A DNA stretch of 64,000 bases from Luteitalea sp. TBR-22 (GTDB lineage: Bacteria > Acidobacteriota > Vicinamibacteria > Vicinamibacterales > Vicinamibacteraceae), in contig NZ_AP024452.1 of assembly GCF_016865485.1 (NCBI RefSeq), positions 2,998,501 through 3,062,500 on the forward strand, read 5' to 3'. The notes beneath the pieces were generated by a model. It did not search any database and was not told the origin of the DNA. It saw only the letters and a program-made list of their open reading frames with translations. Of this stretch, positions 16,490 through 31,405 are shown in pieces (position 1 is the stretch's first letter; every line of letters starts with the position of its first letter). Both the position numbers and the translations under genes were made by a program.

Positions 16490-18547
16490 TCAGCGCGGCG
16501 CGTCGATGGTCACGTTCCCGAGGATGGCGCTGCCGAACCGGCGGCCGACGTCGGCAGCGGCGATCGCCCCTCCGTCGGGGGCGCGCGGACGCACGAGCCT
16601 CACCGGCACGGGGGCCAGGCGCGCGACCAGCTCGGGAAGGTCGGTGACCTGCAGGACGCCGGGCATCACGGCCAGCGTCAGTCCCGCGTGCGTGTCGGAG
16701 CTGGCGACGTCCTCGTAGCTCACCGGGCCCTCCTCGAGCACCAGACCTGCAGGGCGCAGGTGCTGCGCCGCGAACACGGCGGCCGGCACCGTCTGGCCCC
16801 GCGCGTGGATGGTGACCTCGGGAGCCCCGCCGGGCACGAGGGCATCGAGCACCGCGAGGCTCGCGTGGATGTCGTGCACCTGCCATGTCACCACGCTGGT
16901 GCCGAGCAGCCAGGCGCGCGCCGCGAACTGGTAGTCGGCGCCGTATCCGCTGCTGCCGGCGCGCGGCCCCAGGACTCCCGTGCCGCGCACGTCCACCGCC
17001 AGCACGTGCTGCCCGCTGCGCGCGAGCGAGTCGATGGCGGCATCCTGGTGGATGGCCCCGCGATCGTCGAGGAGCAGCACCACGCGGCGACTCGGCGTCG
17101 TCGAGGCGCGGAAGCGCGCCGGCAGGCGCAGGCCGTCGTACAGCTCGATGGCGAGGCGCTCACCGGCCATCGTCGTCGCGCTGCCGCTGCGCTCGGCGAT
17201 GCGGCCGTGGGGACCCGTGCGGTAGAGGTGTAGCAGGCGGCGCAGCGCGTCGTCGGTCACGGCCGGGCGAGTCCTCGCGAGGGTGCGAGCTTCTTCGGCG
17301 TTCAACTGACGGACGGTGTGGCTGCCGCCGGAGGTCGCCAACTGCCCGGTCGTGGTGACCCGGAGCGCGGTCTCCGGTTCGGTGGTCACTGCCGCCTCGG
17401 CGCTCGGCCCCGGACGCCCCAGCCAGCGCCCGAGTGCCTGGTATGCGCCCTCGCGCAACGGCTGCGTCCATCCGTGGGTCGCGTCGTTCTCCACGCGCGC
17501 GAGCCGGTCGCCGGCGCCGAGCAGGTCGTACAGGCGGGTCAGCTCGGCAGAGGCGGCCCTCGAGCCGGCGATCGGGAAGAAGTCCTTGATCGCGCTGCTC
17601 ACCAGGAAGCCACGCGGCGCGGCGGCGAGCGCGAAGTCGGCGAAGTCGAGTCCCAGCCCGACGAAGCCGGGCAGGATCTGCTCGGCGTCCTGTGGCCCCG
17701 GCACGTCCCACATGTCGGCCCACGAGGTCATGTAGCAGGAGACCACCACGGCAGCGAGCCGCGGCTCCACCGCGCCCAGCAGCGCCGCCTGCGTCCCGCC
17801 TCCCGAGTTGCCGGCCACCGCCAGCCGCGCCGCGTCGACGTCAGGGCGGCTCGCCAGGTAGTCGAGCGCGCGCTGCATGTCGCGCACCATGTAGGCGCCG
17901 AGCGTGCGCCCGGTCAGCAGCACCTGCTGACCCGTCATCGAATGCTCACGCGTCCCGATGCCCACCCGGGAACCCGTGCCGGCGGCGTCGGGGTACTCGA
18001 GACGCTCGCCCTGTCCGAAGGGGTCGATGGCCAGCACGAGGAAGCCGCGCCGCGCCAGCGACACCCAGGCGTGCTGATAGACCGGCGAGGCCTTGCCCTC
18101 GTCGGCGTGCCCGGCGGTGCCGACGACGGCCGGGAAGGGGCCGGTCCCTTCGGGCACGTAGGCGTTGGCCGTCACGCGGAAGCCCGGCGCGCTCTCGAAG
18201 ACCACGTGCTCGATGCGATAGCCCTGGCGCGCCGTGGTGCGGGTGACCCTCGCCCCGAGCGGCGTGGACACGGCGGGGAGCAGCCCCAGCGAGGCGCGCA
18301 GCGCCGTTCGGACGTCCCGTTGCCGCGCCTCGACGTCGGCCCGCGTGACCAGCGTCGCCACGCGGGCACGCCGCGCGTCCAGAGCCTGCCTGGCCTGGCC
18401 ATCGAGCCACGTGTCGAAGGTGACCCGTTCGGGCGCGACAGCCGGAACGGGTGCGGGAGCGGGCTGGCGTGCGAGCAGCACGCCGGCCCCCAGGAGGACG
18501 GTGAGGACGACTGAAGGGAGGCGGCGCGCCGGAGCCATGACGCGCAA
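16490..18547 (-). CDS. Secreted alpha/beta hydrolase (acetylxylan-esterase-like)
   Basis: A protein of up to 685 residues; ATG at 18538 (residue 4) is an alternative start. The N-terminus is a signal peptide (VVLTVLLGAGVLLAR). The first hydrolase domain has the nucleophile elbow GNSGGG near residue 250, preceded by PDVDAARLAVAG, and belongs near the Abhydrolase_7/AXE1 group that deacetylates polysaccharides. The second half (from about 400) resembles a second, degraded hydrolase-like domain with VLLLDDRG and EGPVSYEDVASS but no obvious nucleophile. Likely exported for breakdown of acetylated glycans. It is a single gene. Confidence 0.75.
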   Translation of the reverse strand: MRVMAPARRLPSVVLTVLLGAGVLLARQPAPAPVPAVAPERVTFDTWLDGQARQALDARRARVATLVTRADVEARQRDVRTALRASLGLLPAVSTPLGARVTRTTARQGYRIEHVVFESAPGFRVTANAYVPEGTGPFPAVVGTAGHADEGKASPVYQHAWVSLARRGFLVLAIDPFGQGERLEYPDAAGTGSRVGIGTREHSMTGQQVLLTGRTLGAYMVRDMQRALDYLASRPDVDAARLAVAGNSGGGTQAALLGAVEPRLAAVVVSCYMTSWADMWDVPGPQDAEQILPGFVGLGLDFADFALAAAPRGFLVSSAIKDFFPIAGSRAASAELTRLYDLLGAGDRLARVENDATHGWTQPLREGAYQALGRWLGRPGPSAEAAVTTEPETALRVTTTGQLATSGGSHTVRQLNAEEARTLARTRPAVTDDALRRLLHLYRTGPHGRIAERSGSATTMAGERLAIELYDGLRLPARFRASTTPSRRVVLLLDDRGAIHQDAAIDSLARSGQHVLAVDVRGTGVLGPRAGSSGYGADYQFAARAWLLGTSVVTWQVHDIHASLAVLDALVPGGAPEVTIHARGQTVPAAVFAAQHLRPAGLVLEEGPVSYEDVASSDTHAGLTLAVMPGVLQVTDLPELVARLAPVPVRLVRPRAPDGGAIAAADVGRRFGSAILGNVTIDAPR

Positions 18548-18569: not shown

Positions 18570-19208
18570 TCAGCTGGCCGCTTCGTCCTCGTCGGCGGGC
18601 AGCCTGCGCCTGGCGGAGGTGCGCGTCTCCAGCACGATGATGTTGCGGGGGACGAGGACGACGTCGGCCGACCGACGCGCCTCGCGCAGGATGCTGCGCA
18701 GGCCTTCGAGCGTCGCGCGCACGTCGTCGTTGCTGACGCCCTCGTCGAGCAGGTCGTGGATGCGCAGCTCGAGGTCGGCGACCGATCGCGGCTCGTCGAG
18801 TGCGATCAGGGCCCGACCGTCCGGCAACGGCACGAGGGAGACGCCGAGGTACTGCTCGAGGAGGCGAGAGGGCCTGACGCTGATCACCGCGCGGGAGCCG
18901 AACGTGACCAGTTCGGCCGGCTCACGCAGCGCCGGCGAGGTGCGGTCCTGGATCAGTCCGGCCACCGCGTGGCCGAGGTCCTCGTTGACGCGCGAGAGCG
19001 AGCCGATGACCGACTCGGGCAGCGTGAGCGACACGACCCGTGACGGTTCGTCGAACTTGCGCGGGCGGCCGCGGCGTCGGCGCAGCGGCGCCATCGCGCC
19101 GCTCGCAGTGAGGAGGAGTTCGTCGTGAGGCATCAGCACGTCCCAGCCGGCCAGCGTGAGCACGAGCGCCATCAGTCCTGCGAACTGCCACGCGATCGAC
19201 GAGGGCAT
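18570..19208 (-). CDS. RGRP-motif (AT-hook/ribbon-helix-like) protein with N-terminal membrane helix
   Basis: About 212 residues from ATG 19208, chosen because codon use becomes strongly GC3-biased from there; an ATG at 19268 is the longest choice. Residues 5-24 form a hydrophobic helix (AWQFAGLMALVLTLAGW). Next comes RRRRGRPRKF, whose RGRP core is the AT-hook DNA-binding motif, then VVSLTLPESVIGSLSRV, like the strand-helix start of ribbon-helix-helix proteins. The rest aligns with the protein at 26856-27365 (LVTFGSRAVISVRPS, GVSLVPLPDGRALIALD, NIIVLE). No characterised family is recognised. It is divergent from the membrane protein at 19373. Possibly a membrane-tethered DNA-binding regulator. 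Confidence 0.65.
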   Translation of the reverse strand: MPSSIAWQFAGLMALVLTLAGWDVLMPHDELLLTASGAMAPLRRRRGRPRKFDEPSRVVSLTLPESVIGSLSRVNEDLGHAVAGLIQDRTSPALREPAELVTFGSRAVISVRPSRLLEQYLGVSLVPLPDGRALIALDEPRSVADLELRIHDLLDEGVSNDDVRATLEGLRSILREARRSADVVLVPRNIIVLETRTSARRRLPADEDEAAS

Positions 19209-19213
19209 GGTTG

Positions 19214-19219
19214 AGCATA
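19214..19219 (-). promoter_or_regulatory. Possible -10 box for the RGRP-motif gene
   Basis: On the minus strand TATGCT ends 5 nt before the ATG at 19208, which would place the transcript start at or near the start codon. No convincing -35 box is seen. Confidence 0.4.
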
Positions 19220-19270
19220 CCTCGGGAGCGTGCCCGCGCGGGTGCGAGGTGACCATCGATCGCGTCATGA

Positions 19271-19301
19271 CTCCCGAAGGTTGGGGAGGCCCGGCTCCCG
19301 A
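19271..19301. promoter_or_regulatory. CTCCC repeats in the divergent control region
   Basis: CTCCC at 19271-19275 pairs with GGGAG at 19284-19288, and CTCCCGA recurs at 19295-19301 and, inverted, at 19222-19228. The same heptamer is found in front of the paralogous gene at 26856. A candidate operator for the RGRP-motif proteins. Confidence 0.35.
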
Positions 19302-19337
19302 ATTTACATGAGCTTAATTGATCAGTTTGCAATTTTT

Positions 19338-19366
19338 TTGACGTAATTCAAATCGCCTCCTATCCT
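19338..19366 (+). promoter_or_regulatory. Sigma-70-type promoter predicting a leaderless mRNA
   Basis: TTGACG (19338-19343), a 17-bp spacer and TATCCT (19361-19366). The GTG start codon is at 19373, exactly where transcription would begin. The element sits in an AT-rich island (about 19300-19355) that contrasts with the GC-rich surroundings. Confidence 0.65.
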
Positions 19367-19372
19367 CGGTTT

Positions 19373-21028
19373 GTGTCCACCACCGAGCCCCCGGGGACCG
19401 ACGATCCGCGCCGGCGTGAGGCGCGCGGCCTTGCCGTGGGTCTCATGCTGGTGGCCATCGCCCTGACGGCTGTCGTGTGGGTGCTGGCCGCACATCGATC
19501 GCACGACATCCTCACCGTTCGGCACCTCCAGAACGCGGTCTTCGGCCCACAGCCGGTGCTTCCCGGGCCGGTGGGCACGACCCGGGCGCAGATCGAACGG
19601 CTACGATCCATCGAGGGGCCCCTGCTGCTCGAGTCGGTGCTGCCCGACCAGGCGGGTGTGCTCTGGCTCTTTGCGCTGGTCGTGTGCCTGATCGGTTTTG
19701 CCGGCCCGCCAGGGCGCGCCGAACTCGCCGGCCTGCTCGCGCTGGGCCTGCTCCTGTTCGACATCACGAGCGACCTGTCCCGACTCGACGACCCCGTGTC
19801 GTGGCAGTTGATGGACTGGACGTTCACCGCGATCGTCGCGCTCAGCGTCGCCCTGGCGGGGGCGGCCATCTTCCGGAGTCGACGACACGCGGCCGGCCTC
19901 TGGCGACCACCGGTGACGGCTCCCACGCTGCGCGCCGCGGCCGTGACTCTCCTCGCGCTCAGCCTGGCCATCACGCTGATCCGCTTTCCGGACGACGCGG
20001 GGTTCTACACCAACCTGGGGGCGCAGCGCCTGCGGGAGCGCGGCTGGTTCCCGTACGGCGACCCGGTCCTGAGCGGCTCGGCCGCCGCCGGCTACGGGCC
20101 GGTGCTGTTCCTGGTCCACCTGCCGTTCCAGGCGCTGCTCGACCCGACGGTCCCCAATCCCGCATCTCCCGAGTACCTGCAGATTCGGTACGGTCATAAC
20201 TACCTGCTGCCGCCGGCCCAGGCGTCGCAACTCGCCACCGCGAGCCTGCATCTGTTGGCCGTGGGCGCGCTGTGGCTGATCGTGCGCCGTCAGGTCGGGA
20301 GCGCCGCCGCGTGGGGCGTGCTGGCTCTCTACCTCGCGAGTCCCTTCGTGCTCGGCGTCGGCGGCGTGCACGAGTCCATCGGTGGCGTGACCTTCATCTC
20401 CCACGTCGCGCCGACGGCGCTCGCCCTGCTGGCCCTGGCTCTCGAGGCCCGCCCGCTGTGGGCCGGGTTTGCCCTGGCGGCCAGCGTGGCCACCGTCTTC
20501 GCGCCGTTGTTCTTCGTTCCGGCCTGGGTCGGCTACTACGCACACGACCGCCGGGCGCTCGCCCGCTTCGTGGCAGGGCTGGCGCTGGCCGCGGTGATCA
20601 TCGGCGGCCCGGTGCTGTGGCGCACGCGCCCGATACCCGGGCGCAGCGTGATCGCGACGGTGGTGCACGACACGGTCGGGCACCACCAGGGCGCCGACAT
20701 GTATGGCCAGAGTCCCTTCGGGTTCTGGGGGGGACGCGATGGCTGGCGGGCGCGACTGCGCAACGAACTGGTGCCCGGCGTGTCGGTGAGCAGTCCCATG
20801 TTCGCCGCGGCGCTGGCGTTCATGGTGAGCGGCGCGTGGCTCGGGCGCGGCCGCACCCCTCGACAACTGGCGGCGCTGATGGCCGCCATGGGCATCGCCA
20901 GCCAGCTCTGGAAGATCCACGGCACCGGGGTCTACGTGAACTGGTACCTGCCCTTCCTGTTGATCGGCATCTACGGCGCCGACGGCGTGCCGGGCCCCTC
21001 CGCCCCTGTCCAGGAGACGCACCGATGA
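19373..21028 (+). CDS. Polytopic membrane protein, GT-C-like (function unknown)
   Basis: A 551-residue protein with about 10-12 membrane helices. Between helices lies a soluble stretch with DDAGFYTNLGAQRLRERGWFPYGDPVL, which resembles the first luminal loop of GT-C glycosyltransferases, where an acidic residue binds the lipid-linked sugar. Homology is too weak to name a family. It starts a run of tightly packed sugar genes: the GT2 gene overlaps its stop (ATGA), followed by a nucleotidyltransferase and epimerase. It likely handles a lipid-linked sugar or polymer. The divergent neighbour is an RGRP-motif protein. Confidence 0.7.
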   Translation: MSTTEPPGTDDPRRREARGLAVGLMLVAIALTAVVWVLAAHRSHDILTVRHLQNAVFGPQPVLPGPVGTTRAQIERLRSIEGPLLLESVLPDQAGVLWLFALVVCLIGFAGPPGRAELAGLLALGLLLFDITSDLSRLDDPVSWQLMDWTFTAIVALSVALAGAAIFRSRRHAAGLWRPPVTAPTLRAAAVTLLALSLAITLIRFPDDAGFYTNLGAQRLRERGWFPYGDPVLSGSAAAGYGPVLFLVHLPFQALLDPTVPNPASPEYLQIRYGHNYLLPPAQASQLATASLHLLAVGALWLIVRRQVGSAAAWGVLALYLASPFVLGVGGVHESIGGVTFISHVAPTALALLALALEARPLWAGFALAASVATVFAPLFFVPAWVGYYAHDRRALARFVAGLALAAVIIGGPVLWRTRPIPGRSVIATVVHDTVGHHQGADMYGQSPFGFWGGRDGWRARLRNELVPGVSVSSPMFAAALAFMVSGAWLGRGRTPRQLAALMAAMGIASQLWKIHGTGVYVNWYLPFLLIGIYGADGVPGPSAPVQETHR

Positions 21029-21741
21029 ACGGCAACGGAGCGATCAGGACGCTCAGCGTCCTGGTGCCCATCTACAACGAGCGCCACACCGTGGAGCGCC
21101 TGCTGCGATCGGTGGCGGCGGTGGACACCGGCCTCGAGGTCGAGATCCTCGCCGGCGACGACGGATCGACCGACGGCACGCGCGACATCCTGCAGGCATT
21201 GCGGCTGCCCGGGCTGCGCGTCGTGCTGATGGACCGCAACGTCGGGCGCGGCGGCGTCATCAAGCACCTGTGGTCGCTGGCCACCGGCGACGTGCTCCTG
21301 CACCAGGACGCCGACCTCGAGTACGACCCCGCCGACTATCCGGCGCTGCTCGCGCCGCTGGTGCTCGGGTCGGCCGACGTCGTCTACGGGAGCCGCTTCA
21401 AGGGACACATCGCGGGGATGCGCTGGCTGAACCGGCTGGGCAACCACACGATGAGCGCCGCGACGCGGGCGCTGTACGGCGTGCGCGTCTCCGACCTCAT
21501 GACCTGCTACAAGGCCTACCGGAGGACGCTGGTGACCGACCTGCACATCGACGCCGACGGCTTCGACTTCGAGGCGGAGTTCACCGCGCGCCTGGCGCAG
21601 CGCGGGGCGCGCTTCACGGAGGTGCCCATCCGCTTCGCCGGGCGCACGTTCGAGGAGGGCAAGAAGATCCGCGCGGTGGATGCGGTGCGCGTGATGCGCG
21701 AGCTGGTGCGCTGCAAGGTGACGGAGGCCGCACGTGGCTAG
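21025..21741 (+). CDS. GT2 glycosyltransferase, soluble DPM1-like
   Basis: A 238-residue GT-A enzyme whose ATG lies within the preceding stop. Motifs are LSVLVPIYNERHTVERLL, AGDDGSTDGT and HQDADLEYDP (DxD-type metal site), then YGSRFKGH and GFDFEAEFTARLAQRGARFTEVPI, typical of dolichol- or polyprenyl-phosphate sugar synthases. No membrane hairpin follows, unlike the GT2 at 8464. It should load a sugar onto a lipid carrier for the adjoining membrane protein. An 8-nt overlap joins it to the next gene. Confidence 0.88.
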   Translation: MNGNGAIRTLSVLVPIYNERHTVERLLRSVAAVDTGLEVEILAGDDGSTDGTRDILQALRLPGLRVVLMDRNVGRGGVIKHLWSLATGDVLLHQDADLEYDPADYPALLAPLVLGSADVVYGSRFKGHIAGMRWLNRLGNHTMSAATRALYGVRVSDLMTCYKAYRRTLVTDLHIDADGFDFEAEFTARLAQRGARFTEVPIRFAGRTFEEGKKIRAVDAVRVMRELVRCKVTEAARG

Positions 21742-22702
21742 CGCTCCGATGGTCGGCGTGATCCTCGCGGCGGGGAAGGGTGCCCGCATGTACCCCTTCT
21801 CCGAGCAGCGGCCCAAGCCGGTGTTGCCCATCCTCAACCGCCCGTTGCTCGGCTACCAGATCGACGTGATGCGTGAGGCCGGGATTACCGACATCCACAT
21901 CGTGGTCGGGCATCGCGGCTACCAGGTGGCGTCGGCGCTCGGCGACGGCGCGACCCTCGGGGTGCGGATCCGGTACGTCGAGCAGGAGACGACACTCGGC
22001 CTGGCGCACGCCGTAGGGGCCCTGGAATCGCGCATCGACGGCCCGTTCGTGCTCATGCTGGGCGACATCCAGTTCCACCTGTGCGGCCCGCTGCGGCCCC
22101 TGATGGACGAGGTGTCGTGCGGGGCAGTCAATGCCAATCTGGTGAGTCGCGAAGAGCCCGACCCCGAGATGCTGCGGCGCAACTTCGCCATCCTCGCCGA
22201 CGACGCGGGCCGCGTGCGTCGCGTCATCGAGAAGCCCCGGTTCTCGACGACGCGGTTGAAGGGATGCGGGCTCTACGTGTTCGACGAGCGGATCTTCGAC
22301 GCCATCCGGCGGACGCCCCGCACCGCCCTGCGCGACGAGTACGAGATCACCGACAGCATCCAGATCATGATCGAGGACGGCTGGGTGGTGCGGCACCATC
22401 CGATCGTCAGCCGCGACCTGAACCTGACGCGCGCCGAGGACCTGCTGATGATCAACCTGGCCGAACTGGCGCGCCGGAGCCTGCCGCGGTTGGTGTCGCC
22501 CTCGGCGCAGCTGGCGCCGGGCACCGTAGTGGAGCACAGCGTCATCGGCCCCGACGTGATCGTGCGTCATCCGATCCGCATCGTCGACTCGGTGATCATG
22601 CCCGGCGCGCACGTCGAGGCCCGTCACGACCTGACGCAGGTGGTGACCGATGGCGAGCACCTGGTCTATTGCCCCGACCTCGATCTGCAGGTCACCTCGT
22701 GA
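21734..22702 (+). CDS. Sugar-1-phosphate nucleotidyltransferase
   Basis: A 322-residue protein with the signature GVILAAGKGARMYPFSEQRP followed by KPVLPI, then a Rossmann-like core (LMLGDIQFH for the metal-binding Asp, EKPRFSTTRLKGCGLYVFDERIF). The C-terminal 80 residues have hexapeptide-like turns (APGTVVEHSVIGPDVIVRHPI). This matches glucose-1-phosphate thymidylyl- or mannose-1-phosphate guanylyl-transferases; which sugar is used cannot be read. It supplies an activated sugar to the surrounding glycosyltransferases and overlaps the downstream epimerase by 4 nt (GTGA). Confidence 0.88.
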   Translation: MASAPMVGVILAAGKGARMYPFSEQRPKPVLPILNRPLLGYQIDVMREAGITDIHIVVGHRGYQVASALGDGATLGVRIRYVEQETTLGLAHAVGALESRIDGPFVLMLGDIQFHLCGPLRPLMDEVSCGAVNANLVSREEPDPEMLRRNFAILADDAGRVRRVIEKPRFSTTRLKGCGLYVFDERIFDAIRRTPRTALRDEYEITDSIQIMIEDGWVVRHHPIVSRDLNLTRAEDLLMINLAELARRSLPRLVSPSAQLAPGTVVEHSVIGPDVIVRHPIRIVDSVIMPGAHVEARHDLTQVVTDGEHLVYCPDLDLQVTS

Positions 22703-23643
22703 CGCCCCGTCATGCGCTGGTGACCGGTGGCGCCGGCTTCATCGGCTCCCACGTCGTCGCGGCCCTGAGGGCGGGCGGCGCGGCCGTGACCGTCCTCGAC
22801 GACCTGTCGATGGGACGCCGGGAGGCCGTGCCCGCCGCTGCGCGGTTCATCCACGGCGACGTGCGCGACGAGGCGGCCGTGCGACGCGCCCTCGACGGCG
22901 TCGACGTGGTGTTCCACCTCGCGGCGCAGGTCACGGTGCGCGGGAGCTTCGCGCGGTTCTACGAGGACCTCGACACCAACGTGATGGGCACCGCCTGCCT
23001 GGTGCGCGCGCTCGACCCGTCGCGGGTGCGGTGGTTCACGCTGGCCTCGTCGATGGCGGTGTATGCCGACTCGCCCGACGGCCACCCGGTGGCCGAGACG
23101 CACCCGACGACGCCGCAGTCGCCGTACGGGGTGGGCAAGCTGGCGGCCGAGGGCGTGGCGCGACAGGTGCTGGCGATGCGCGGGGTGCCGTGCACGGTGC
23201 TGCGCTACTTCAACACCTTCGGTCCCGGCCAGGCCTACACCCCCTACGTCGGGGTGATCACCATCTTCCTGACGCGGCTGCTGCGTGGGGAAGTGCCGGT
23301 CATCTTCGGCGACGGCGAGCAGCAACGCGACTTCGTGCACGTGCAGGACGTGGCGGCGGCGACGGTCGCCGCGGTCGGACGGCCGCCGGGCACCTACAAC
23401 GTCGGCACCGGGCGTGGCACGTCGCTCACGGCGCTGGCGCGCCTGGCCATCGACGCGGCAGGTGTGCGCGGTGTCTCGCCACGGTACGAAGCCGCGCAGC
23501 CGGGGGAACTCCGGCACTCGGTGGCCGACGTGTCGGCCGCGCGCCGGGCGTTGGGATACCACCCGGAGCGGAGGCTGGCCGAGGAGATGCCCCGGGTCGT
23601 GGCCGACGTCGCGTCGCGCCTGGCGTCGTCGCGCCAGGCATAG
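22699..23643 (+). CDS. NAD-dependent sugar epimerase (UDP-glucose 4-epimerase-like)
   Basis: A 314-residue extended short-chain dehydrogenase. It starts at GTG overlapping the nucleotidyltransferase stop. The NAD-binding glycine motif is TGGAGFIGSH (residues 9-18); the catalytic Ser lies in LASSMAVYAD and the Tyr-x3-Lys in SPYGVGKLAAEG. RYFNTFGPGQ and FGDGEQQRDFVHVQDVA are also typical. It is the last gene of the 19373-23643 unit and is followed by a strong hairpin terminator. Substrate stereochemistry is not determinable. Confidence 0.9.
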   Translation: MTPRHALVTGGAGFIGSHVVAALRAGGAAVTVLDDLSMGRREAVPAAARFIHGDVRDEAAVRRALDGVDVVFHLAAQVTVRGSFARFYEDLDTNVMGTACLVRALDPSRVRWFTLASSMAVYADSPDGHPVAETHPTTPQSPYGVGKLAAEGVARQVLAMRGVPCTVLRYFNTFGPGQAYTPYVGVITIFLTRLLRGEVPVIFGDGEQQRDFVHVQDVAAATVAAVGRPPGTYNVGTGRGTSLTALARLAIDAAGVRGVSPRYEAAQPGELRHSVADVSAARRALGYHPERRLAEEMPRVVADVASRLASSRQA

Positions 23644-23682
23644 GCGAGGCCTCGACCGACGTGCCAACGGGCAGGAACACGA

Positions 23683-23706
23683 AAGGCCGGGCGGGTGCCC
23701 GGCCTT
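23683..23706. terminator. Bidirectional hairpin terminator
   Basis: AAGGCCGGGC (23683-23692), loop GGGT, GCCCGGCCTT (23697-23706): a perfect 10-bp stem with A/T ends between the convergent epimerase and radical SAM genes. Confidence 0.8.
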
Positions 23707-23730
23707 CGTCGTGCCACGCGACGGTGGCGG

Positions 23731-24882
23731 TCAGGGGCAGACGGTCGCGGCGATCGGCTGGCGCGCCGCCTTGCGCTTCTCGGCGCTGGCGCGCACCAGG
23801 AACTTCGCGTAGGGCACCACCTGCTTGATGGCCGCCACGTTCATCTGGCAGGGGCTCAGGCAGGTCGGGCACTTCTCGTCGCGGATGTAGTTGCGGTGCG
23901 CCTGCGAGGCCTTGGCGAAGTAGACCGCCTCCGGATCCTCGGTGACGGCGTTGCCGACGACGTTGCTGTTCTCGCAGAAGAACATGCCGCCGTCAGGGTT
24001 CAGCATCAACCCCTGCGTCTGGAACGGGCAGGGCGCCGTGCGGTGGTAGCCGTTGGCGATCATGTCCGCGTAGTGCAGGTAGATGTAGTTCTGCCCGTCG
24101 AGCAGCGGGTCGTGGCGGACGCGGTCCATGAAGAACTCGCGCATCCGCTGCTCCTCCTCGCTGACCGGCTTGATGTCCTTGGCCAGGTCGGCGTTGCCCA
24201 GCATGGCCTCGGTGAAGCGGACCATGTTGAACACGATGTCCAGCTTCTCCCGGCGCGCCCACGCCAGGATGTTCTCGGCATCGTCGAGGTTCATCGAGAA
24301 GATCGTCGTCGAGATCCCGAAGTTGAACGGGTACGTCTTCTGGAGCTCCTTCATGGCCGCGATCGTCTGCTCGGCCTTGTCGAAGCCGCGCTTCACGCGC
24401 CGCACCTCGTTGTGCATGTCGCCGACGCCGTCGATCGACACGCGGGTGCTGAAGATGACGCCCCGCTCGTGGCACATCTGCACGATCTTGGTGAGCATCG
24501 GGATGCCGCGATGCGGCGTCAGGCCGGTCGTGTTGAGCGTCAGCTTCCGGAGTTTGGGCAGCTTGTCGATCAGCACGCGGACGATGTCCACCAGGTCGTT
24601 GCGGGTCGTCGGCTCCCCACCCGAGATGCTGGCGTTCTCGATGTGTTTCCAGAGCGGGGAGTCGAAGACCTTCTCGATCTGCTCCAGGCTCATGTCCTCC
24701 TTGCGGTTGCCACGCGTCCAGTTGCTGCACATGTTGCAGCGGGCGTCGCACACGAAGGTGACGTGGAAAATCAACACGGTCGGGTGAAGCGCCTTCACCC
24801 GGCCGATGTAGCTGTTGACGAGGTCCCGCGGAGCGGAGAGAGCGGCCTTGGCGAGATACTTGGCCGCGTACACTTGCGCCAT
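23731..24882 (-). CDS. Radical SAM protein with C-terminal SPASM-like cysteines
   Basis: A 383-residue protein. The iron-sulfur motif CDARCNMC (Cys45, Cys49, Cys52) is the canonical CX3CX2C that binds the SAM-cleaving cluster; SISGGEPTTR is the GGE motif contacting SAM. The C-terminal part has further cysteines (CPFQTQG, FFCENSN, CPTCLSPCQMNV), as in SPASM or twitch domains that hold auxiliary clusters. Such enzymes often modify peptides or sugars; here the surface-glycan context and lack of a peptide precursor leave the substrate open. A good sigma-70 promoter precedes it. Confidence 0.88.
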   Translation of the reverse strand: MAQVYAAKYLAKAALSAPRDLVNSYIGRVKALHPTVLIFHVTFVCDARCNMCSNWTRGNRKEDMSLEQIEKVFDSPLWKHIENASISGGEPTTRNDLVDIVRVLIDKLPKLRKLTLNTTGLTPHRGIPMLTKIVQMCHERGVIFSTRVSIDGVGDMHNEVRRVKRGFDKAEQTIAAMKELQKTYPFNFGISTTIFSMNLDDAENILAWARREKLDIVFNMVRFTEAMLGNADLAKDIKPVSEEEQRMREFFMDRVRHDPLLDGQNYIYLHYADMIANGYHRTAPCPFQTQGLMLNPDGGMFFCENSNVVGNAVTEDPEAVYFAKASQAHRNYIRDEKCPTCLSPCQMNVAAIKQVVPYAKFLVRASAEKRKAARQPIAATVCP

Positions 24883-24891
24883 AAGTTCCTG

Positions 24892-24921
24892 ATCCTACAG
24901 CCTGTTGTGGTCCGGAGTCAA
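24892..24921 (-). promoter_or_regulatory. Sigma-70-type promoter of the radical SAM gene
   Basis: On the minus strand TTGACT (24916-24921), an 18-bp spacer and TAGGAT (24892-24897), followed by AGGA about 5 nt before the ATG at 24882. Spacing and hexamers are near consensus. Confidence 0.6.
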
Positions 24922-24950
24922 AGTCGGACCAAGCTGGTCGCCAGCAATGC

Positions 24951-25048
24951 GAAATTTGAAATTCGAAATTGTGGCGCGCCGACTGCGTCGCGCGCGGCGA
25001 AGGCCGCAGGCCAAGCCGCCCCGAATTTCAAATTTCCAATCTCAAATT
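24951..25048. repeat. AT-rich heptamer repeats forming an inverted pair
   Basis: GAAATTT-GAAATTC-GAAATTG (24951-24971) is three 7-bp units. The first 15 bases reappear exactly inverted at 25022-25036, and heptamer-like units continue to 25048. The 56-bp GC-rich centre (24966-25021) has no reading frame of note. The rest of the 164-bp gap holds the promoter above. Confidence 0.75.
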
Positions 25049-25976
25049 ACCTGTTCCTCAGGTAGAGCCACGCTCCCGGCAGGTTGCCGAACAGGCCCGA
25101 CAGCACGATGAGGGTCGACAGGGCCAGGGACAGTTCGTCGGGCACACCCTGCGGCCTGAGCAGCCACACCATGAACACCTGGGGCAGGCCGAAGCCGCTC
25201 ACCGAGATGGGCAGCAGCAGCATCAGCAGGCCCACCGGCATGAAGACGAGGTAGTAGCTGAAGGGCACGGCAAGGTTCAGGCCGAGGCCCAGCCCGTAGG
25301 CCTGCAGGATACGAAGCAGTTGGACCAGCACCGACAGCGCGAAGACGGCGACCAGGGTGCGGGGTTGCTCCCGATAGGCCGCGACGCTGTCGGCGATGCG
25401 GAGCGGCAGCCGGACCGCGGTCCAGTCGTGCCAGGAGGCGGGCAGCCAGCGGATCCATCGGTCGGCCCATACGGCGACGCCGGAGCCCACGAACACCGCG
25501 GCGGCGCTCGCCACGGCGACCGCCTGCACCTGGGGATCGGGGTGGGTCCGTGCGTACACCGCCACGCCGAGTGCACCCATCAGCGCGATGGCGACCACGC
25601 CCAGGATCCGATCCACCGCGACCGAGGCGACCGCCGCGCCGCGCTGGGCGGTGCGCTGCCCGAGCGCGTAGGCTCGGGCCGCGTCGCCCCCGACCCCGGC
25701 GGGCAGGAAGCTGCCGACGAATGAACTGACCAGGAAGATCCGTGCCGCCGTGCCCGTCGTGATGGGGCTGCCCTGGGCGCGCAGGAGCAGCAGCCAGCGC
25801 CAGATCATCACCGCGCGGTCCAGAAGCACGAGGGCGGCCACGACGAGCAGCGCGACGGGGTCGGCGCGCACCATCGCACCGAGGGCGGCCCCGGCATCCA
25901 CCTGGCGCATCAGGTAGGCGAGGATGGCGACGGTGATGGCGCCCCGCACCCACACCGAGCCGAGCCAGCGCGTCAT
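25047..25976 (-). CDS. UPF0104/LPG_synthase_TM family membrane protein
   Basis: A 309-residue protein with about eight helices and conserved segments LDRAVMIWRWLLLL, FLVSSFVGSFLPAGVGGDAARAYALG and VAVDRILGVVAIALMGALG; the pattern GxxxGDxxRxY in the third loop defines the AglD/UPF0104 flippase-like family. Members without the synthase domain are thought to flip lipid-linked substrates. Its ATG overlaps the upstream methyltransferase stop (ATGA), so both form one transcript read toward the radical SAM gene. A paralogue lies at 32933-33931. The stop overlaps the edge of the heptamer repeat. Confidence 0.85.
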   Translation of the reverse strand: MTRWLGSVWVRGAITVAILAYLMRQVDAGAALGAMVRADPVALLVVAALVLLDRAVMIWRWLLLLRAQGSPITTGTAARIFLVSSFVGSFLPAGVGGDAARAYALGQRTAQRGAAVASVAVDRILGVVAIALMGALGVAVYARTHPDPQVQAVAVASAAAVFVGSGVAVWADRWIRWLPASWHDWTAVRLPLRIADSVAAYREQPRTLVAVFALSVLVQLLRILQAYGLGLGLNLAVPFSYYLVFMPVGLLMLLLPISVSGFGLPQVFMVWLLRPQGVPDELSLALSTLIVLSGLFGNLPGAWLYLRNR

Positions 25977-26692
25977 GCGCGGGGCTTGCGTGCCACGAAC
26001 GTCAGCGTCTCGAACAGGTTCTTGCGCACCTTGAACAGCAGGTCCTCGGTGCCGGTCCAGCGCGACAGCGTGTTCAGCCCGGGGACGTTGGCCAACACGG
26101 CCGCGGCGGCCAGCGCGTCGCGCCGCAGGCCCGTGGCCACGCCGATGCTCCGCACCACCCGCTCGACCACGAAGCCGCCGTCGTTGAACAGCTGCTTCAT
26201 CCGGCGTTCGGTGGTCACGAAGTTGTGCGTGTAGTCGACGTCCCAGAAGAACGTGCGCTCCTTCAGGTAGTCGGGCACCACCACGAAGAAGACGCCGCCG
26301 GGCTTGAGCAGGCGAAGCGCGTCGGCGGTGAAGGCCCGGGCCGCGTCGATGCCCGGCATGTGTTCCATCACCTGGTCGGCGTACACGACGTCGAGCGAGG
26401 CATCCTCGCCCGGGATGGGCGGCGTGAAGGCCTTCACGACCTTGAAGCCCTTCTTCGTGAGGACGTCGATCAGCAGGTCGCTCGCCTCGATCGCCGTGTA
26501 GTCCCATCCCGCGGCACGGGCGAGTTCCCCGAGCGTGCCATGGCCCGGGCCAATCTCGACGAACCGCCCCGGGGGCTGGACCGCCTGATGGAGGAGACCC
26601 AGGCGCGTCCGTTCGATGCGGCTCCGGCGCGCCGCGCCGAACCCCGTGAGTTCCTTCTCGGAAAACGACTTGTAGAACGTGTCCTCGGCCAC
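25973..26692 (-). CDS. Class I SAM-dependent methyltransferase
   Basis: A 239-residue methyltransferase: VEIGPGHGTLGELARAAG (motif I), DVVYADQVMEHMPG (motif IV) and RLLKPGGVFFVVVPDY (post-motif). The His-Met pair after motif IV and the downstream DVDYTHNFVTTERR are common in methyltransferases of O-antigen and glycolipid clusters. It is coupled by a 4-nt overlap to the flippase-like gene. A role in capping or modifying a surface glycan is likely but inferred. Confidence 0.85.
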   Translation of the reverse strand: MAEDTFYKSFSEKELTGFGAARRSRIERTRLGLLHQAVQPPGRFVEIGPGHGTLGELARAAGWDYTAIEASDLLIDVLTKKGFKVVKAFTPPIPGEDASLDVVYADQVMEHMPGIDAARAFTADALRLLKPGGVFFVVVPDYLKERTFFWDVDYTHNFVTTERRMKQLFNDGGFVVERVVRSIGVATGLRRDALAAAAVLANVPGLNTLSRWTGTEDLLFKVRKNLFETLTFVARKPRA

Positions 26693-26740
26693 GGCGCCGG
26701 ATCATAGCAGGCGCCCGCCAGCCGCCCCGGCCGGGATCGC

Positions 26741-26799
26741 GCCCTCCCGGCGATTCGGGAGGGCTTCCGTCCCCGACGAACAGGGGATTCGGATCCCGA
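26741..26799. promoter_or_regulatory. Inverted repeat and CTCCCGA elements upstream of the second RGRP-motif gene
   Basis: A perfect 9-bp inverted repeat GCCCTCCCG (26741-26749) / CGGGAGGGC (26756-26764) with a 6-base loop, then TCCCGA at 26794-26799. The CTCCCGA core is shared with the control region at 19222-19301. It may be an operator or a terminator for upstream reads. Confidence 0.4.
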
Positions 26800-26821
26800 G
26801 AATTAACTACAAAAAATTCGG

Positions 26822-26850
26822 TTGAAACCGGCGTTTATGTCGATGAAAAT
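26822..26850 (+). promoter_or_regulatory. Promoter predicting a leaderless mRNA
   Basis: TTGAAA (26822-26827), a 17-bp spacer and GAAAAT (26845-26850); the ATG is at 26856, so the transcript would start at the start codon, as at 19373. It lies in an AT-rich island following GAATTAACTACAAAAAATTC. Confidence 0.5.
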
Positions 26851-26855
26851 GCGGC

Positions 26856-27365
26856 ATGCCTCCACGGGGTCGCCCCCCCAAGTTCGGCAAGCCTGCCAGT
26901 CTTGTGGCACTCACGCTGCCCGAAGACGCCATCGCCGAACTCGAGGCGATCGATCCCGACCTCGGCTGGGCCATCGTCAAGCTGCTCGACCTGGCCACCG
27001 AGGGACGACGCGGAACGCCAGCCGACCCGCCCGACGCCGAGCTGTTGCCGATTGGCCCCCGGCAGTTCCTGATCGTCGTCCGACAGGACGTGTTCGCCGG
27101 CCTGCCGCACGTGTCTCTGGTGCCGCTGGGCCAGGGCAGGGCCTTCCTTGCGTTCGCCCCGGGCCGCACCATCGAGACGCTCGAACTCGCGGTGCTCGAC
27201 AGGCTCGAGAGCGGCCTGCTCACGCCTGACGAAGCCGTCCGGTATCGGGCCTTCCGGACGGTCCTCCGGGACTGGCGGCGCGACAGCACACTCCGCTTCC
27301 ACGAACGCTCCATTGTCGTCGTCGAACGGAACGACGGCGGTGCGACCCGGAGGCGTCGCGCGTGA
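26856..27365 (+). CDS. RGRP-motif (AT-hook/ribbon-helix-like) protein, paralogue of the 18570-19208 protein
   Basis: A 169-residue protein starting with PPRGRPPKFGKPASLVALTL. The RGRP motif and the following LVALTLPEDAIAELEAID, DLGWAIVKLL, HVSLVPLGQGRAFLAF and SIVVVERND align with the paralogue on the other side of the block. It lacks that protein's N-terminal hydrophobic helix and should be soluble. The short basic C-terminus (RRRR) may also touch nucleic acid. It overlaps the large membrane protein by 4 nt (GTGA), so the two are co-translated. No known family is recognised; a DNA-binding regulator is the best guess. Confidence 0.7.
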   Translation: MPPRGRPPKFGKPASLVALTLPEDAIAELEAIDPDLGWAIVKLLDLATEGRRGTPADPPDAELLPIGPRQFLIVVRQDVFAGLPHVSLVPLGQGRAFLAFAPGRTIETLELAVLDRLESGLLTPDEAVRYRAFRTVLRDWRRDSTLRFHERSIVVVERNDGGATRRRRA

Positions 27366-29455
27366 GCGCGCAGTCGCCCGCCACCCGCCGGCTCACCATC
27401 GGCGCGGCAACAGTGGGGGTGCTTGGCACGGCCTGGCTGTGCGTCGCGTCGTGGCGGGTGCTCTGGCTCCTGGCCGTCGGCCTCTGGTGGGTCACGCCCG
27501 GGGTGATCGCCCTGCGCCGCGCCTACCGCGACACGCGGCAGCCGTGGCCGTTGGCCCTGCTGCTCGGCCCGCCCCTCGGCTTTGCGCTGAGCAGCCTCGT
27601 GCTGCTCGCGGTCTGGTTACCCGGGTGGCACTCGGCATGGTGGCTGGTCGCCGCGCCACTGGTCGCGTGCGTGCTCGCCGCCGCGACGCCCTCGCTGGGG
27701 ACGCGGCTGGTGGTGCCCCGGTTTGACCGCCGCGACGTCGTTGCCGTCGCGCTGGTGCTGCTACTGGTGCCGGCGGTCGTCGCCCGCCCCTACTCGCAGG
27801 TCGGCCGCGACCTGCCGGAAGGGCGCGCCTATCGCGCGTACTTCACCGCGGATTTCGTGTGGGCCATGGCCGTGGTGTCGGAGGTCAGCAAGGGCGACGT
27901 GCTGCCGCGCAACCCGTACCACGTCGACCAGCCTCTGCACTACTACTGGCTCGCGCACCTGTTTCCCGCGCTCGAACACCGCGCGCTCGGTCGCGCGGTG
28001 CGCCTCGACCACCTGCTGCTGGCCAATGCCGCGTTCGCCGCGGCGATGTTCCTCGGGTTCCTCTACGGACTCGCCAAGCACTTCGCGCGGGCGGCCGTGC
28101 CATCTGCCCTCGGCTGCGTGGCCGTGGTGCTCTGTACCAGTCCGGAAGGACTCATCGCACTGAGTGACCTGGCGCGGCAGGCGCGCCCGCTGGACCTCGT
28201 GCGCTACCTGAACATCGATGCGGTGGATCGGTGGATCTTCGGGGCCTTGCCCATCGACGGCCTGCAGCGCCTCTTGCTGTACCAGCCACAGCACCAGATC
28301 GGCTACGCGCTGGCCTGCACCGCGCTGCTGCTGATGGCGCAGCAGGGCAGTCGGCCGCGTGTGCGCACCGCCGCGATGGCCGCGACCGTGCTGGGGTGCG
28401 GCCTGCTGATCAGCACGTTCTCGGCCCTGATGGTGGCGACGATGCTGGCGCTCGTGGCCAGCGTCGTCATCGTGCGTGCCCGTGCGTGGTCGACCGGCAT
28501 CGCGCAGGGCGCCGTCGCGGCAGTGCCGCTGGGCATTGCGGTGTGGGCGAGCCGGGCCCTGTCCTATGTGGTGAGCGACGACGGCGCGCCGCTGGTGACT
28601 GTCGGCCTCAATCCGATTGCGGCCCGGCATCCGTTCATCGGCCCCCTGGTGAGCCTCGGCCCGGTCCTGCTGCTGCTGGCCTTGGGCGGATGGTGGCTGG
28701 CGCGAACCGGGAGGCGTCAGACCCGGGTGCTGATCCCTGGTGTGGCCCTGGTCGTGTGCGCGTTCTACTACTACGCCGTCGACGTGCGCGACCACCAGGA
28801 CGTCTACGTCGGCTGGCGCGCCGGCCACCTGCTGCTGATTCTCTCGAGCGGGATGATCGGCTGGACGGCATGGCGGCTGCTGCACGCGTCGGCGCGTCGG
28901 TGGAGCGCGATCGGCGTTGCGACCGTCGCGCTGCTCGTGACGGCCACGCTGCCGACGGTGGTGCTCGACCTCTACAACAGCCAGGACCTCACGAACCGGC
29001 AGATGGCGGCGGGTTTTCCCTGGACGCTCGTCCTCGGCCACGACGAGGTGAACGCGTTGCGGTGGATTGCCGAGCGGACGCCGCTCGACGCGCGCGTGCA
29101 GGTCGATCCGATCGCCCGCGACCCGGCCACCTGGGCCTACATCCCGGCCTTCGCCGAGCGGCGAATGTCGGGCGGGCTGCCGATCTCGATGATTCCGCTG
29201 CACCCCTACGAGGAGATCAGCGGGCGGATCAGGCGCATGTTCGACCGCACGACACCGGAAGGGATCTTCCAGGAAGCGCAGGCCCTCCGTATCGACGTGT
29301 TGTTGGTGGGCGGCGTCGAGAAGCAGGCGCATCCGCGACTGGAGGCGTTGCTGGCGTCGCGTCCCCAACTCTTCGTGCCCATGTTCAGGACGCGCAACGT
29401 CACGCTGTACGCCATCAGCGGACGGATGCGCGCGCAGGTCGCGGCGCGCCGCTAG
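27362..29455 (+). CDS. Large polytopic membrane protein, GT-C-like (function unknown)
   Basis: A 697-residue protein with 13 or more predicted helices and a soluble C-terminal domain (about residues 560-690). The first large loop has RAYFTADFVWAMAVVSEVSKGDVLPRNPYH, and an acidic residue in this position is the metal or lipid-sugar ligand of GT-C transferases; LHYYWLAHLFPALEH follows, as in several DUF2298-type or oligosaccharide-transferase-like proteins. No family can be named with confidence. Translation is coupled to the RGRP-motif gene. It is followed by repeats and a strong terminator. Confidence 0.7.
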   Translation: MSAQSPATRRLTIGAATVGVLGTAWLCVASWRVLWLLAVGLWWVTPGVIALRRAYRDTRQPWPLALLLGPPLGFALSSLVLLAVWLPGWHSAWWLVAAPLVACVLAAATPSLGTRLVVPRFDRRDVVAVALVLLLVPAVVARPYSQVGRDLPEGRAYRAYFTADFVWAMAVVSEVSKGDVLPRNPYHVDQPLHYYWLAHLFPALEHRALGRAVRLDHLLLANAAFAAAMFLGFLYGLAKHFARAAVPSALGCVAVVLCTSPEGLIALSDLARQARPLDLVRYLNIDAVDRWIFGALPIDGLQRLLLYQPQHQIGYALACTALLLMAQQGSRPRVRTAAMAATVLGCGLLISTFSALMVATMLALVASVVIVRARAWSTGIAQGAVAAVPLGIAVWASRALSYVVSDDGAPLVTVGLNPIAARHPFIGPLVSLGPVLLLLALGGWWLARTGRRQTRVLIPGVALVVCAFYYYAVDVRDHQDVYVGWRAGHLLLILSSGMIGWTAWRLLHASARRWSAIGVATVALLVTATLPTVVLDLYNSQDLTNRQMAAGFPWTLVLGHDEVNALRWIAERTPLDARVQVDPIARDPATWAYIPAFAERRMSGGLPISMIPLHPYEEISGRIRRMFDRTTPEGIFQEAQALRIDVLLVGGVEKQAHPRLEALLASRPQLFVPMFRTRNVTLYAISGRMRAQVAARR

Positions 29456-29718: not shown

Positions 29719-30603
29719 CTAGTTCACGAAGCGGCCACGGCCGATCCAGCGGCCGATGGTGCCGGAGTTGATGGTCACGGCCGTCTGGTCGATCCATGCC
29801 GGCGACGGGCTGTTGCCGCAGTGGCCGAACATGATGTCGATGATGTAGACCGACGTGCTCAGGTTGCTCGGCCCGGCGCCGTAGTGGTAGTCGACGATGT
29901 CCTGGCTCGGGTCGTTGGCGTTGCCACGCTTGCCGTTGTAGCCCCAGCGGTTGTCTTCCTTGCGGAGTTCATCCACGAGGTAGTCCATGAATTCCCACGT
30001 GCCACCGTGCTCCTGGCACGAGCGGCGAACGAGGTCGGGGCGCGCCGCAAAGGCGGCGTTGACCACGTTCGACCGGTTGGGCAGCGGCAGGCGCGTGCCC
30101 GGCGCCGGGTCGGGCGTGCGGTTGGCGCCCGACACGGGCGCGGCCGGCGTCCGGAAGGTCCAGTTCGGCGACCACTGCGCGTAGGCGTCGCCGTACTCGG
30201 CGCGGACGCGCCACGTGTAGGTCGTGTCGAACTTCAGCTGCGAGGTCACCGTCCAGCTCGTACGACCGTTGCCGGCAGGCACGAGAGGCTCGGCGAGGAG
30301 CGTGCTGCCCTCGAAGAGCTGGAAGCGGTGCGCCACGGCCACCGTCGACACGTGGGTCGCCGTGGCGTTGGCCACCGACAGCGTCACGGGAATCGTGTTC
30401 GACGGGCCGAGGGTCGTCGTCGCGCCCGACTCGGGCGCCGGCGACGACGGCACGCTGGCCTTCAGCGTGGGCGTGCCTTCCGGCACGGCGGCAACGGCGC
30501 CAGAGCCGGGGGTGCCGCTGGGCGACACGGGGTTGGAGTTGCTGCTGCAGGCCGCGCTGGCGGCGAGCAGGACCACGAGACCGAGTTGAATCGCGTGCTT
30601 CAT
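29719..30603 (-). CDS. Secreted lipoprotein with Fn3-like region and WGYNGKRGN domain
   Basis: A 294-residue lipoprotein; ATG 30603 gives a clean signal and lipobox (ASAAC, Cys19). Residues about 50-170 look like a fibronectin-type-III-like module (TYTWRVRAEYGD, WTFRTPAAP). The C-terminal ~125 residues form a conserved block: PDPAPGTRLPLPN, SCQEHGGTWEFMD, RWGYNGKRGNANDPSQDIVDY, VYIIDIMFGHCG and GTIGRWIGRGRF. Two cysteines in the block could form a disulfide. The block is nearly identical to the C-terminus of the lipoprotein at 31612-32883. Function unknown; surface-exposed by inference. Confidence 0.8.
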   Translation of the reverse strand: MKHAIQLGLVVLLAASAACSSNSNPVSPSGTPGSGAVAAVPEGTPTLKASVPSSPAPESGATTTLGPSNTIPVTLSVANATATHVSTVAVAHRFQLFEGSTLLAEPLVPAGNGRTSWTVTSQLKFDTTYTWRVRAEYGDAYAQWSPNWTFRTPAAPVSGANRTPDPAPGTRLPLPNRSNVVNAAFAARPDLVRRSCQEHGGTWEFMDYLVDELRKEDNRWGYNGKRGNANDPSQDIVDYHYGAGPSNLSTSVYIIDIMFGHCGNSPSPAWIDQTAVTINSGTIGRWIGRGRFVN

Positions 30604-30634: not shown

Positions 30635-31405
30635 TCAGAAGGAAACACGGACGGCGCCGAAGAACTGCGCACCGCCGTACTTGACGTCCACGTCCCCGGT
30701 CGACCCGGGCAGGGCGACCGTGCCACCGGCATAGCGGAAGCCCACCGTCGCTCCCACCTTGCCCGAGTCGCCGAGTTCGAACGGGAAGTACGTCAGTTCC
30801 GCGCCGACGTTGATCGTGACGGCCGTCTTGTCGGCCGTCGAGAGCGTGATGTCCTGGATGGCCACCGTGGCGAAGTTGGGCGCCGCGTCCTGCTCGACGA
30901 CGCGCGCATCGGTGGCGAAGTCGTGCTTGACCGTCACGAACGACGGGCCGCCGCCGAAGGCGAACTGCAGGTTCTCGCCGACCGGGATCGCCCACATCGC
31001 CGCGAGGTGGAAGCCGTTCTCTTCGTGCTTCAGGCCGCCGATGCTCTGGTTGGCGGTGCGGGGCCGGTTGAGGAAGAGCGGGTGGGGCACACTCGCCGTC
31101 ACGGCGGTGTCCATCGTGTCGCTGTTGCGCGTGAAGTTCAGCGCGAGGTGCAGGTTGCGCCACGCGCGGAAGCCACCGCCGATGTTCCAGAGGGCGCCGC
31201 CGCCGTATTCCTGGGCGCCGGCGATGGTGCCTTGCTCGCCGTAAATCGTGAACGTCGAAGTGTTGGTGAGGTTGTGCGACCCGCTCTGGGCGCCGCCTCC
31301 CACCTGGATGTACACCCGCTGTTCGACGGCAGACGACGAGGACTGGGCCGACGCCACCGCGGGCGACAGCAACAGCCCGAGGATCAAGAGGGCTCGTGTA
31401 TTCAT
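30635..31405 (-). CDS. Outer-membrane beta-barrel protein
   Basis: A 256-residue exported protein with signal peptide MNTRALLILGLLLSPAVASAQ. The mature part has alternating beta-strand patterns (GGALWNIGGGFRAWRNLHLALNFTRN, GENLQFAFGGGPSFVTV, KVGATVGFRYAGGTV) and ends in VRVSF, with a terminal Phe as required for outer-membrane assembly. It lies between two lipoproteins sharing a C-terminal domain, all in the same direction, suggesting a common surface role. Closest by pattern to OmpW/OmpA-type eight-strand barrels; no substrate is indicated. Confidence 0.78.
   Translation of the reverse strand: MNTRALLILGLLLSPAVASAQSSSSAVEQRVYIQVGGGAQSGSHNLTNTSTFTIYGEQGTIAGAQEYGGGALWNIGGGFRAWRNLHLALNFTRNSDTMDTAVTASVPHPLFLNRPRTANQSIGGLKHEENGFHLAAMWAIPVGENLQFAFGGGPSFVTVKHDFATDARVVEQDAAPNFATVAIQDITLSTADKTAVTINVGAELTYFPFELGDSGKVGATVGFRYAGGTVALPGSTGDVDVKYGGAQFFGAVRVSF

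Follow-up and report, generated by a model that had tools for sequence, protein, structure and literature searches.

AmrZ of Pseudomonas and WhiB7 of mycobacteria are the described regulators that come closest to a pair of proteins encoded in the DNA analyzed here, a window of 64,000 nucleotides from the genome of Luteitalea sp. TBR-22 (contig NZ_AP024452.1, positions 2,998,501 to 3,062,500). AmrZ is reported to consist of a ribbon-helix-helix (RHH) core with an extended N-terminal arm and a C-terminal domain proposed to serve oligomerization, to repress its own gene, and to bind sites with an A/T-rich linker between the half-sites (PMC3325190); it also regulates extracellular polysaccharide genes (PMC3946381). 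WhiB7 reportedly combines an AT-hook that serves activation with an AT-rich element at its own promoter and with autoregulation (PMC3905903). Luteitalea sp. TBR-22 is a duckweed isolate of the class Vicinamibacteria, phylum Acidobacteriota (PMC8852301).

The two proteins, P0001 (18570–19208, minus strand) and P0002 (26856–27365, plus strand), belong to a protein family not described before, whose members are probably gene regulators. What is new is that many genes of this family, which has no significant match in Pfam or NCBIfam, follow a paired, operator-like DNA element of fixed spacing. Judging from these sequence data, we consider it probable that the family represents a new kind of RHH/AT-hook-like autoregulator, which would control nearby envelope genes through the paired boxes. 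To our knowledge, little is known about the control of transcription in the Acidobacteriota, an abundant soil phylum.

A protein family with two members in one genome

An earlier note, made from the letters of the window alone, had pointed out the resemblance between P0001 and P0002 and listed the motifs they share. Both the motifs and the gene boundaries proved correct, and a BLASTP comparison (154 aligned amino acids, 36% identity, E = 1e-25) identified the two as true homologues. When the whole genome, a single contig of 6,468,984 bases (6.47 Mb), was searched with P0002 at E values up to 1, the only matches were P0002 itself and P0001 (8.4e-21), with no third copy. Beyond this paralogy, a repeat search gave nothing relevant among the 20 and 25 longest matches listed. 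In an alignment of 17 family sequences, a GRPxK core flanked by basic residues, as in the AT-hook consensus, is invariant (G5, R6, P7, and K9 in 17/17). It is followed by a conserved strand-helix segment (xLTLPED) and by further conserved blocks, the last of which is RxIIVLE. P0001 thus has an RGRP arm, a ribbon-helix-like segment, an uncharacterized C-terminal domain and, in addition, an N-terminal hydrophobic helix. The membrane helix read there by the earlier note does lie within the open reading frame: its codons (19096–19208) look as coding-like as those of the core (0.325 vs. 0.347 per codon), and those just upstream do not score as coding. The helix is missing from the closest homologue, the copy of congener G004.

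Profile searches of Pfam, NCBIfam, PHROGs, and PDB gave no significant match for the family; against Pfam at E = 1, neither P0001 nor P0002 matched any family, and no AT-hook match was obtained for the pair or its relatives. A P0002 search of viral contigs and plasmids gave no relatives, and no published account of such a family was found among the papers listed from the open-licence literature, as judged from titles and the beginnings of abstracts.

The ribbon-helix-like segment, also proposed in the earlier note, has moderate support from profile comparison. When the family profile was aligned with that of RHH proteins by hhalign, the match (P 2.4e-4 over 22 columns) was equaled by none of 60 column-shuffled profiles, and it spans the strand and the first helix in the order found in RHH proteins. 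Among the 17 relatives, the top three Pfam matches were weak and of RHH type (RHH_5, RHH_1, and BrnA_antitoxin, which we take to be an RHH family). Several observations weigh against this assignment. The hhalign probability was 44% for the N-terminal part and 12% for the whole profile, the second helix falls outside the alignment, and no curated RHH family was matched significantly, either by P0001 and P0002 at E = 1 or by the 17 relatives, whose best RHH value was 0.032. Structure prediction of P0002 as a monomer placed two helices at residues 23–32 and 34–52 and formed no strand there; this AF2 (AlphaFold2) model is poor (predicted local distance difference test score, pLDDT, 57) and had no clear counterpart in a fold search, which returned nothing at E = 0.001 or better (best, VIA at Z 4.0, not interpretable). 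No RHH structure was among the matches listed for so weak a model, which proves nothing.

RHH proteins are frequently antitoxins, and the weak BrnA_antitoxin match, a single one, might suggest that the family is an RHH-type antitoxin with a neighboring gene as its toxin. We regard this as extremely improbable, as the neighbors are mostly envelope or unassigned proteins that vary from genome to genome, and no recurring toxin-like partner was seen among them (PADLOC was not searched).

Of the 193 genomes searched from the class, 39 matched the family profile, in nearly all cases with a single copy. An intact second copy is present only in Luteitalea sp. TBR-22; in another genome (G049), two matches derive from a single copy that is interrupted by unknown bases. 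In a sample of 396 genomes of the phylum, 22 matched, eight of them outside the class, including two with two matches each. A scan of 84,980 species found only four relatives, all of them metagenome-assembled genomes of Acidobacteria; because its query was one short peptide pattern, it does not prove that the family is phylum-specific. In a tree of 42 members, from which matches covering fewer than 140 model positions were excluded, P0001 falls in a clade of 20 rows (clade A, support 96/92), paired with the copy of G004, and P0002 in a clade of 16 rows (clade B, 97/96), together with the copies of the congeners G001 and G002. Since both clades are well supported and each spans several taxonomic families, P0001 and P0002 are not a local duplicate pair. 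Tandem duplication at this locus was rejected as their origin, the tree placing them in two old clades.

Paired boxes upstream of the family genes

The regions upstream of family genes are AT-rich (38 vs. 261 controls with spacers of at least 60 nt, Mann-Whitney p 2.5e-10). From these regions, unsupervised expectation maximization (EM) recovered a 20-bp AT-rich near-palindrome with a consensus of about gAATTttttcgaaaaAATTc. A box of at least 12 bits was present in 39 of 49 family upstreams; among control genes taken from the same loci the count was 7 of 433, and among shuffles 1 of 490. These figures are partly so by construction, because the motif was trained on the same family upstreams. (One of the 50 upstreams, L078, was too short to be scored and was counted as a miss in the held-out test.) Five of the seven control upstreams with a box, two of which share one box, are spacers of lipoprotein or barrel-type genes. 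In the held-out test, 23 upstreams from five families served for training; 14 of the 27 remaining upstreams then reached 12 bits, compared with 1 of 133 controls. The EM likelihood was 162.6, against 58–77 for six size-matched control sets.

The boxes come in pairs. The second-best box lay 29–33 bp from the best one in 31 of 38 upstreams (200 of 1900 shuffles); when this box also had to reach 4 bits, 21 of 38 upstreams qualified (22 of 1900 shuffles). The typical spacing is ~31 bp, which sets the two centers about three helical turns apart. With a strict pair defined as two boxes 29–33 bp apart, each of at least 5 bits and together of at least 20, the 730,755 bp surrounding family members contained 27 pairs, 25 of them upstream of a family gene (25/50 family genes; 26/50 by a relaxed rule). 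Of the other two, one precedes the P0004 orthologue of G001 (P0004 is the membrane protein encoded next to P0002 in the window) and one precedes a lipoprotein gene adjoining the family gene of L097. Strict pairs were absent from 53 loci of genomes without a detected family member (281,335 bp, ~248 kb without overlaps), from one locus (L161) of G004, whose family member lies elsewhere, and from 20 shuffles of the window.

Within the window, the only boxes of at least 10 bits are two pairs, both located in divergent spacers. In the 164-nt spacer (19209–19372) between P0001 and P0003, a gene for a second membrane protein, both boxes are on the minus strand: 19300–19319 (12.9 bits), nearer P0001, and 19330–19349 (20.3 bits), which overlaps the −35 element (19338) of the predicted P0003 promoter. 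Between P0002 and a methyltransferase gene, the boxes at 26800–26819 (22.1 bits) and 26832–26851 (18.6 bits) are on the plus strand, 32 bp apart; here the −35 of the predicted P0002 promoter lies between the boxes and its −10 within the second. The held-out motif scored 16.8 and 17.7 at these two promoters. An exact pattern built from the four boxes matched nowhere else in the TBR-22 genome and nowhere in G001, G002, or G004. With one mismatch, there were 12 further matches in TBR-22, of which one corresponds to the opposite strand of a box and the rest are unpaired.

In G212, from outside the class, two family members (L070:8310-8765 and 12224-12499) are encoded on opposite strands at a distance of ~4 kb, and a strong box pair accompanies one of them. 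Two truncated or broken members (L034:7960-8184 of G048 and L099:8711-8999 of G130) still have strong single boxes upstream, and that of G048 adjoins a P0004 homologue.

In several members, the boxes overlap hexamers resembling TTGAAA and TAATCT. Of 21 pairs examined from the family, 7 have a promoter-like −35 that begins 10–11 bases into box 1 and a −10 that falls in box 2. The boxes might thus be a mere type of promoter, with the family gene regulated like its neighbors and its product not a binder. The generally AT-rich upstreams would also fit this view, and some of the box signal is indeed explained by promoter conservation, because the boxes partly coincide with these hexamers. The near-palindromes, however, extend beyond the hexamers, and in the loci scanned strict pairs occur only at the family gene and two neighbors, and none was found in comparable loci from family-free genomes, so that we hold this explanation to be clearly improbable. 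A second possibility is that the family protein is an activator, whose AT-hook-like arm would bind AT-rich DNA beside the −35 and assist RNA polymerase in the manner of WhiB7. The RGRP core, the contact of the AT-rich boxes with the −35, and the autoregulatory position all agree with this, and WhiB7 is a precedent (PMC3905903). We nevertheless find an activator unlikely: the near-palindromic boxes come as two, three turns apart, and box 1 lies over the −35 and box 2 over the −10 in the 7 of 21 pairs, which is more in keeping with a repressor.

The arrangement we favor is that of an autorepressor. The N-terminal arm with its AT-hook-like RGRP core and the RHH-like segment would bind the pair of AT-rich near-palindromes. 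Most simply, one RHH dimer would occupy each box and place its RGRP arms in the minor groove at AATT, so that two dimers three turns apart would sit on one face of the DNA. Placed before their own gene, and in several members over its predicted promoter, the boxes would mediate autorepression, and divergent or downstream envelope genes would be switched off together with the family gene. In TBR-22, the candidate targets form two sets: P0002–P0004 together with the methyltransferase operon, which is divergent from them, and P0001 together with the glycan block of P0003, likewise divergent. The C-terminal domain may sense a signal or form higher oligomers. For the regulatory role suggested in the earlier note, the conserved box pairs, including those in front of P0004 in G001 and between P0001 and P0003, offer strong indirect support. 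Homology, distribution, neighbors, boxes, and spacing are observed here, whereas the binding of these proteins to the boxes, the repressive effect, and the role of the C-terminal domain are inferred.

A number of results speak against this interpretation, in addition to the weak fold match described above. Ten of the 49 upstreams and 13 of the 27 held-out ones have no box of 12 bits, and 24 of the 50 family genes lack a pair even under the relaxed definition, in some cases for shortness of the upstream sequence. The lipoprotein genes of the window carry no box, and parts of the boxes coincide with the −35 and −10 hexamers. In G005, a genome without the family, the exact pattern had four matches, single, unpaired, and on different contigs (a reversed-pattern control had two). 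Finally, a two-box profile model, of low power, gave only five sites at E ≤ 1 in 54 genomes, 27 of them with the family; three of the five are just upstream of a family gene (G123, G124, and G212), and none is in TBR-22.

Neighbors of the family and history of the locus

The earlier note had read the locus as a module of a regulator and a membrane enzyme resembling glycosyltransferases of the GT-C class. The layout it gave is correct: P0004 (27362–29455, plus strand, 697 amino acids) overlaps P0002 by 4 nt (27362–27365), and P0003 (19373–21028, plus strand, 551 amino acids) diverges from P0001. Its view that the two membrane proteins look unrelated also held, as BLASTP detected no similarity between them (best E 0.49). 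Both are polytopic membrane proteins, and searches did not confirm a GT-C nature for either. By itself, P0004 had no Pfam match and P0003 a weak and irrelevant one; 18 P0004-family sequences gave only weak Pfam matches, to DUF6541 (one member, 7.2e-4) and DUF6798 (six members, best 0.0083), and eight P0003-family sequences no useful one. Profiles of both found no relative in the PDB, and a single-sequence structure model of P0003 was unusable (pLDDT 43).

Neighbors were counted at 40 places in the class and 10 outside it, leaving out second fragments of broken genes; because several contigs end within 5 kb, the counts are minima. A P0004 homologue adjoined the family gene at 7 of the 40 class places (8 within 5 kb) and a P0003 homologue at 1 (2 within 5 kb). 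A lipoprotein gene with immunoglobulin/fibronectin type III (Ig/Fn3)-type domains adjoined it at 20 places and was no more than 5 kb away at 33; for a barrel-type gene, these counts were 4 and 16. The closeness of the lipoprotein gene is far beyond chance, because a genome has only two to six match pieces of this family (12 genomes). Outside the class, neither a lipoprotein nor a P0004 gene was within 5 kb at any of the 10 places, and a barrel-type gene was at one. The overlap in the window, the adjacency of P0004 homologues at 7 of 40 places, and, in G001, a box pair immediately upstream of the P0004 orthologue would argue for the GT-C module; a lipoprotein gene is present within 5 kb at 33 of 40 places, instead or as well, a P0003 homologue adjoins at 1, and the family is missing from 30 of the 53 class genomes with a P0004 homologue (present in 23) and from 6 of the 9 with a P0003 homologue (present in 3). 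As an explanation of the family the module is thus very improbable; as a general rule it is contradicted, and it survives as a sub-case of clade B. The steadier partner elsewhere is the surface lipoprotein gene, not a membrane protein of the P0003 or P0004 type.

The lipoprotein-family proteins have an Ig/Fn3-like stalk in common and differ in their C-terminal parts; a lipobox-like Cys was found near the start in 28 of 50 called members, many of the others being cut or of uncertain start. Four or more kinds of C-terminal end that look unrelated occur among them, as though tips had been swapped (window 29719–30603 and 31612–32883; L029, L081, L097, L094, and L026).

Gene calls came from a home-made caller, and some starts may be wrong. 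P0003 is followed by genes for a glycosyltransferase of family 2 (21025–21741), a nucleotidyltransferase (21749–22702), and an NAD-dependent epimerase/dehydratase (22699–23643), all on the plus strand. The backbone, on the minus strand, comprises genes for a radical SAM protein (23731–24882), an LPG_synthase_TM-type membrane protein (25047–25976), the methyltransferase divergent from P0002 (25973–26692), a surface protein, probably a lipoprotein, with an Ig/Fn3-type stalk (29719–30603), a probable outer-membrane barrel protein without a Pfam match (30635–31405), a recurrent neighbor, and a lipoprotein with Ig/Fn3-type domains (31612–32883). Downstream of P0001, the next gene (16490–18538, minus strand) encodes an esterase/abhydrolase-like protein of 682 amino acids, hydrolase-like, whose first part resembles acetyl xylan esterase; it starts 31 nt past P0001, in the same orientation, and the two may be co-transcribed.

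Of the four congeners searched (G001, G002, G003, and G004), the first two and the last share this backbone and have the esterase gene near the radical SAM gene, without P0001, P0003, the glycosyltransferase, the nucleotidyltransferase, or the epimerase in between (G001 has one other gene there). The 5-kb P0001 block is thus missing from its site in three congeners, so that the flanking of the locus by P0001 and P0002 is secondary here; gain in TBR-22 and loss in the other congeners cannot be told apart. The esterase gene was not found in G003, and no P0003 homologue was found in any of the four. In G002, the P0002 orthologue is present without P0004, and G004 has neither at the locus and keeps its family member elsewhere. 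Also in G004, a gene for an 801-amino acid protein (L161:5185-7590), missing in TBR-22, G001, and G002, lies between the LPG_synthase_TM-type and radical SAM genes, another insertion in the same backbone. In G030, of another family, the P0003 block (L145:6741-11032) is kept with its glycosyltransferase, nucleotidyltransferase, and epimerase genes in a different order and P0003 at the opposite end, ~19 kb from the family member of that genome.

A broader reading, which we put forward as a possibility on the doubtful side, is that of a phylum-specific regulator class with an AT-hook arm, an RHH-like core, and a new C-terminal sensor reading the state of the envelope. Such regulators would move together with variable surface genes, both lipoproteins whose tips can be exchanged and glycan membrane enzymes, and bring their paired operator with them, so that family and box would mark plug-in surface loci across the Acidobacteriota. 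With a defined operator-like element and named candidate target genes in the genome of a cultured strain, binding and regulation are directly testable, and the boxes allow the envelope genes controlled by each family member to be sought.

Comparison with known regulators

With CopG/RHH_1 (PF01402), the family shares an alignable strand and first helix in the same order; its best single-sequence E value is 0.032, and helix 2 is not aligned. AmrZ is the nearest model: both have an N-terminal arm, an RHH or RHH-like core, a C-terminal domain, and an A/T-rich site, and the self-repression described for AmrZ is what we propose here. An AmrZ-type autoregulatory operator would correspond to the boxes present at the family's own promoters, where they overlap predicted promoters. 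Unlike AmrZ, which ends at residue 108 (PMC3325190), the family proteins have 169–212 residues, with a larger, unassigned C-terminal part and an RGRP core in the arm. Their relatives occur, as far as searched, only in Acidobacteriota, and while AmrZ acts widely, box pairs were found here in two spacers only, by the scan of the window and the pattern search. With WhiB7, the family shares an AT-hook or hook-like core and an AT-rich element at its own promoter, together with the autoregulation that is proposed for the family. WhiB7 is an iron-sulfur, sigma-binding activator with a C-terminal hook, whereas the hook-like core of the family is N-terminal and joined to a ribbon-helix-like segment, and its sites are paired near-palindromes.

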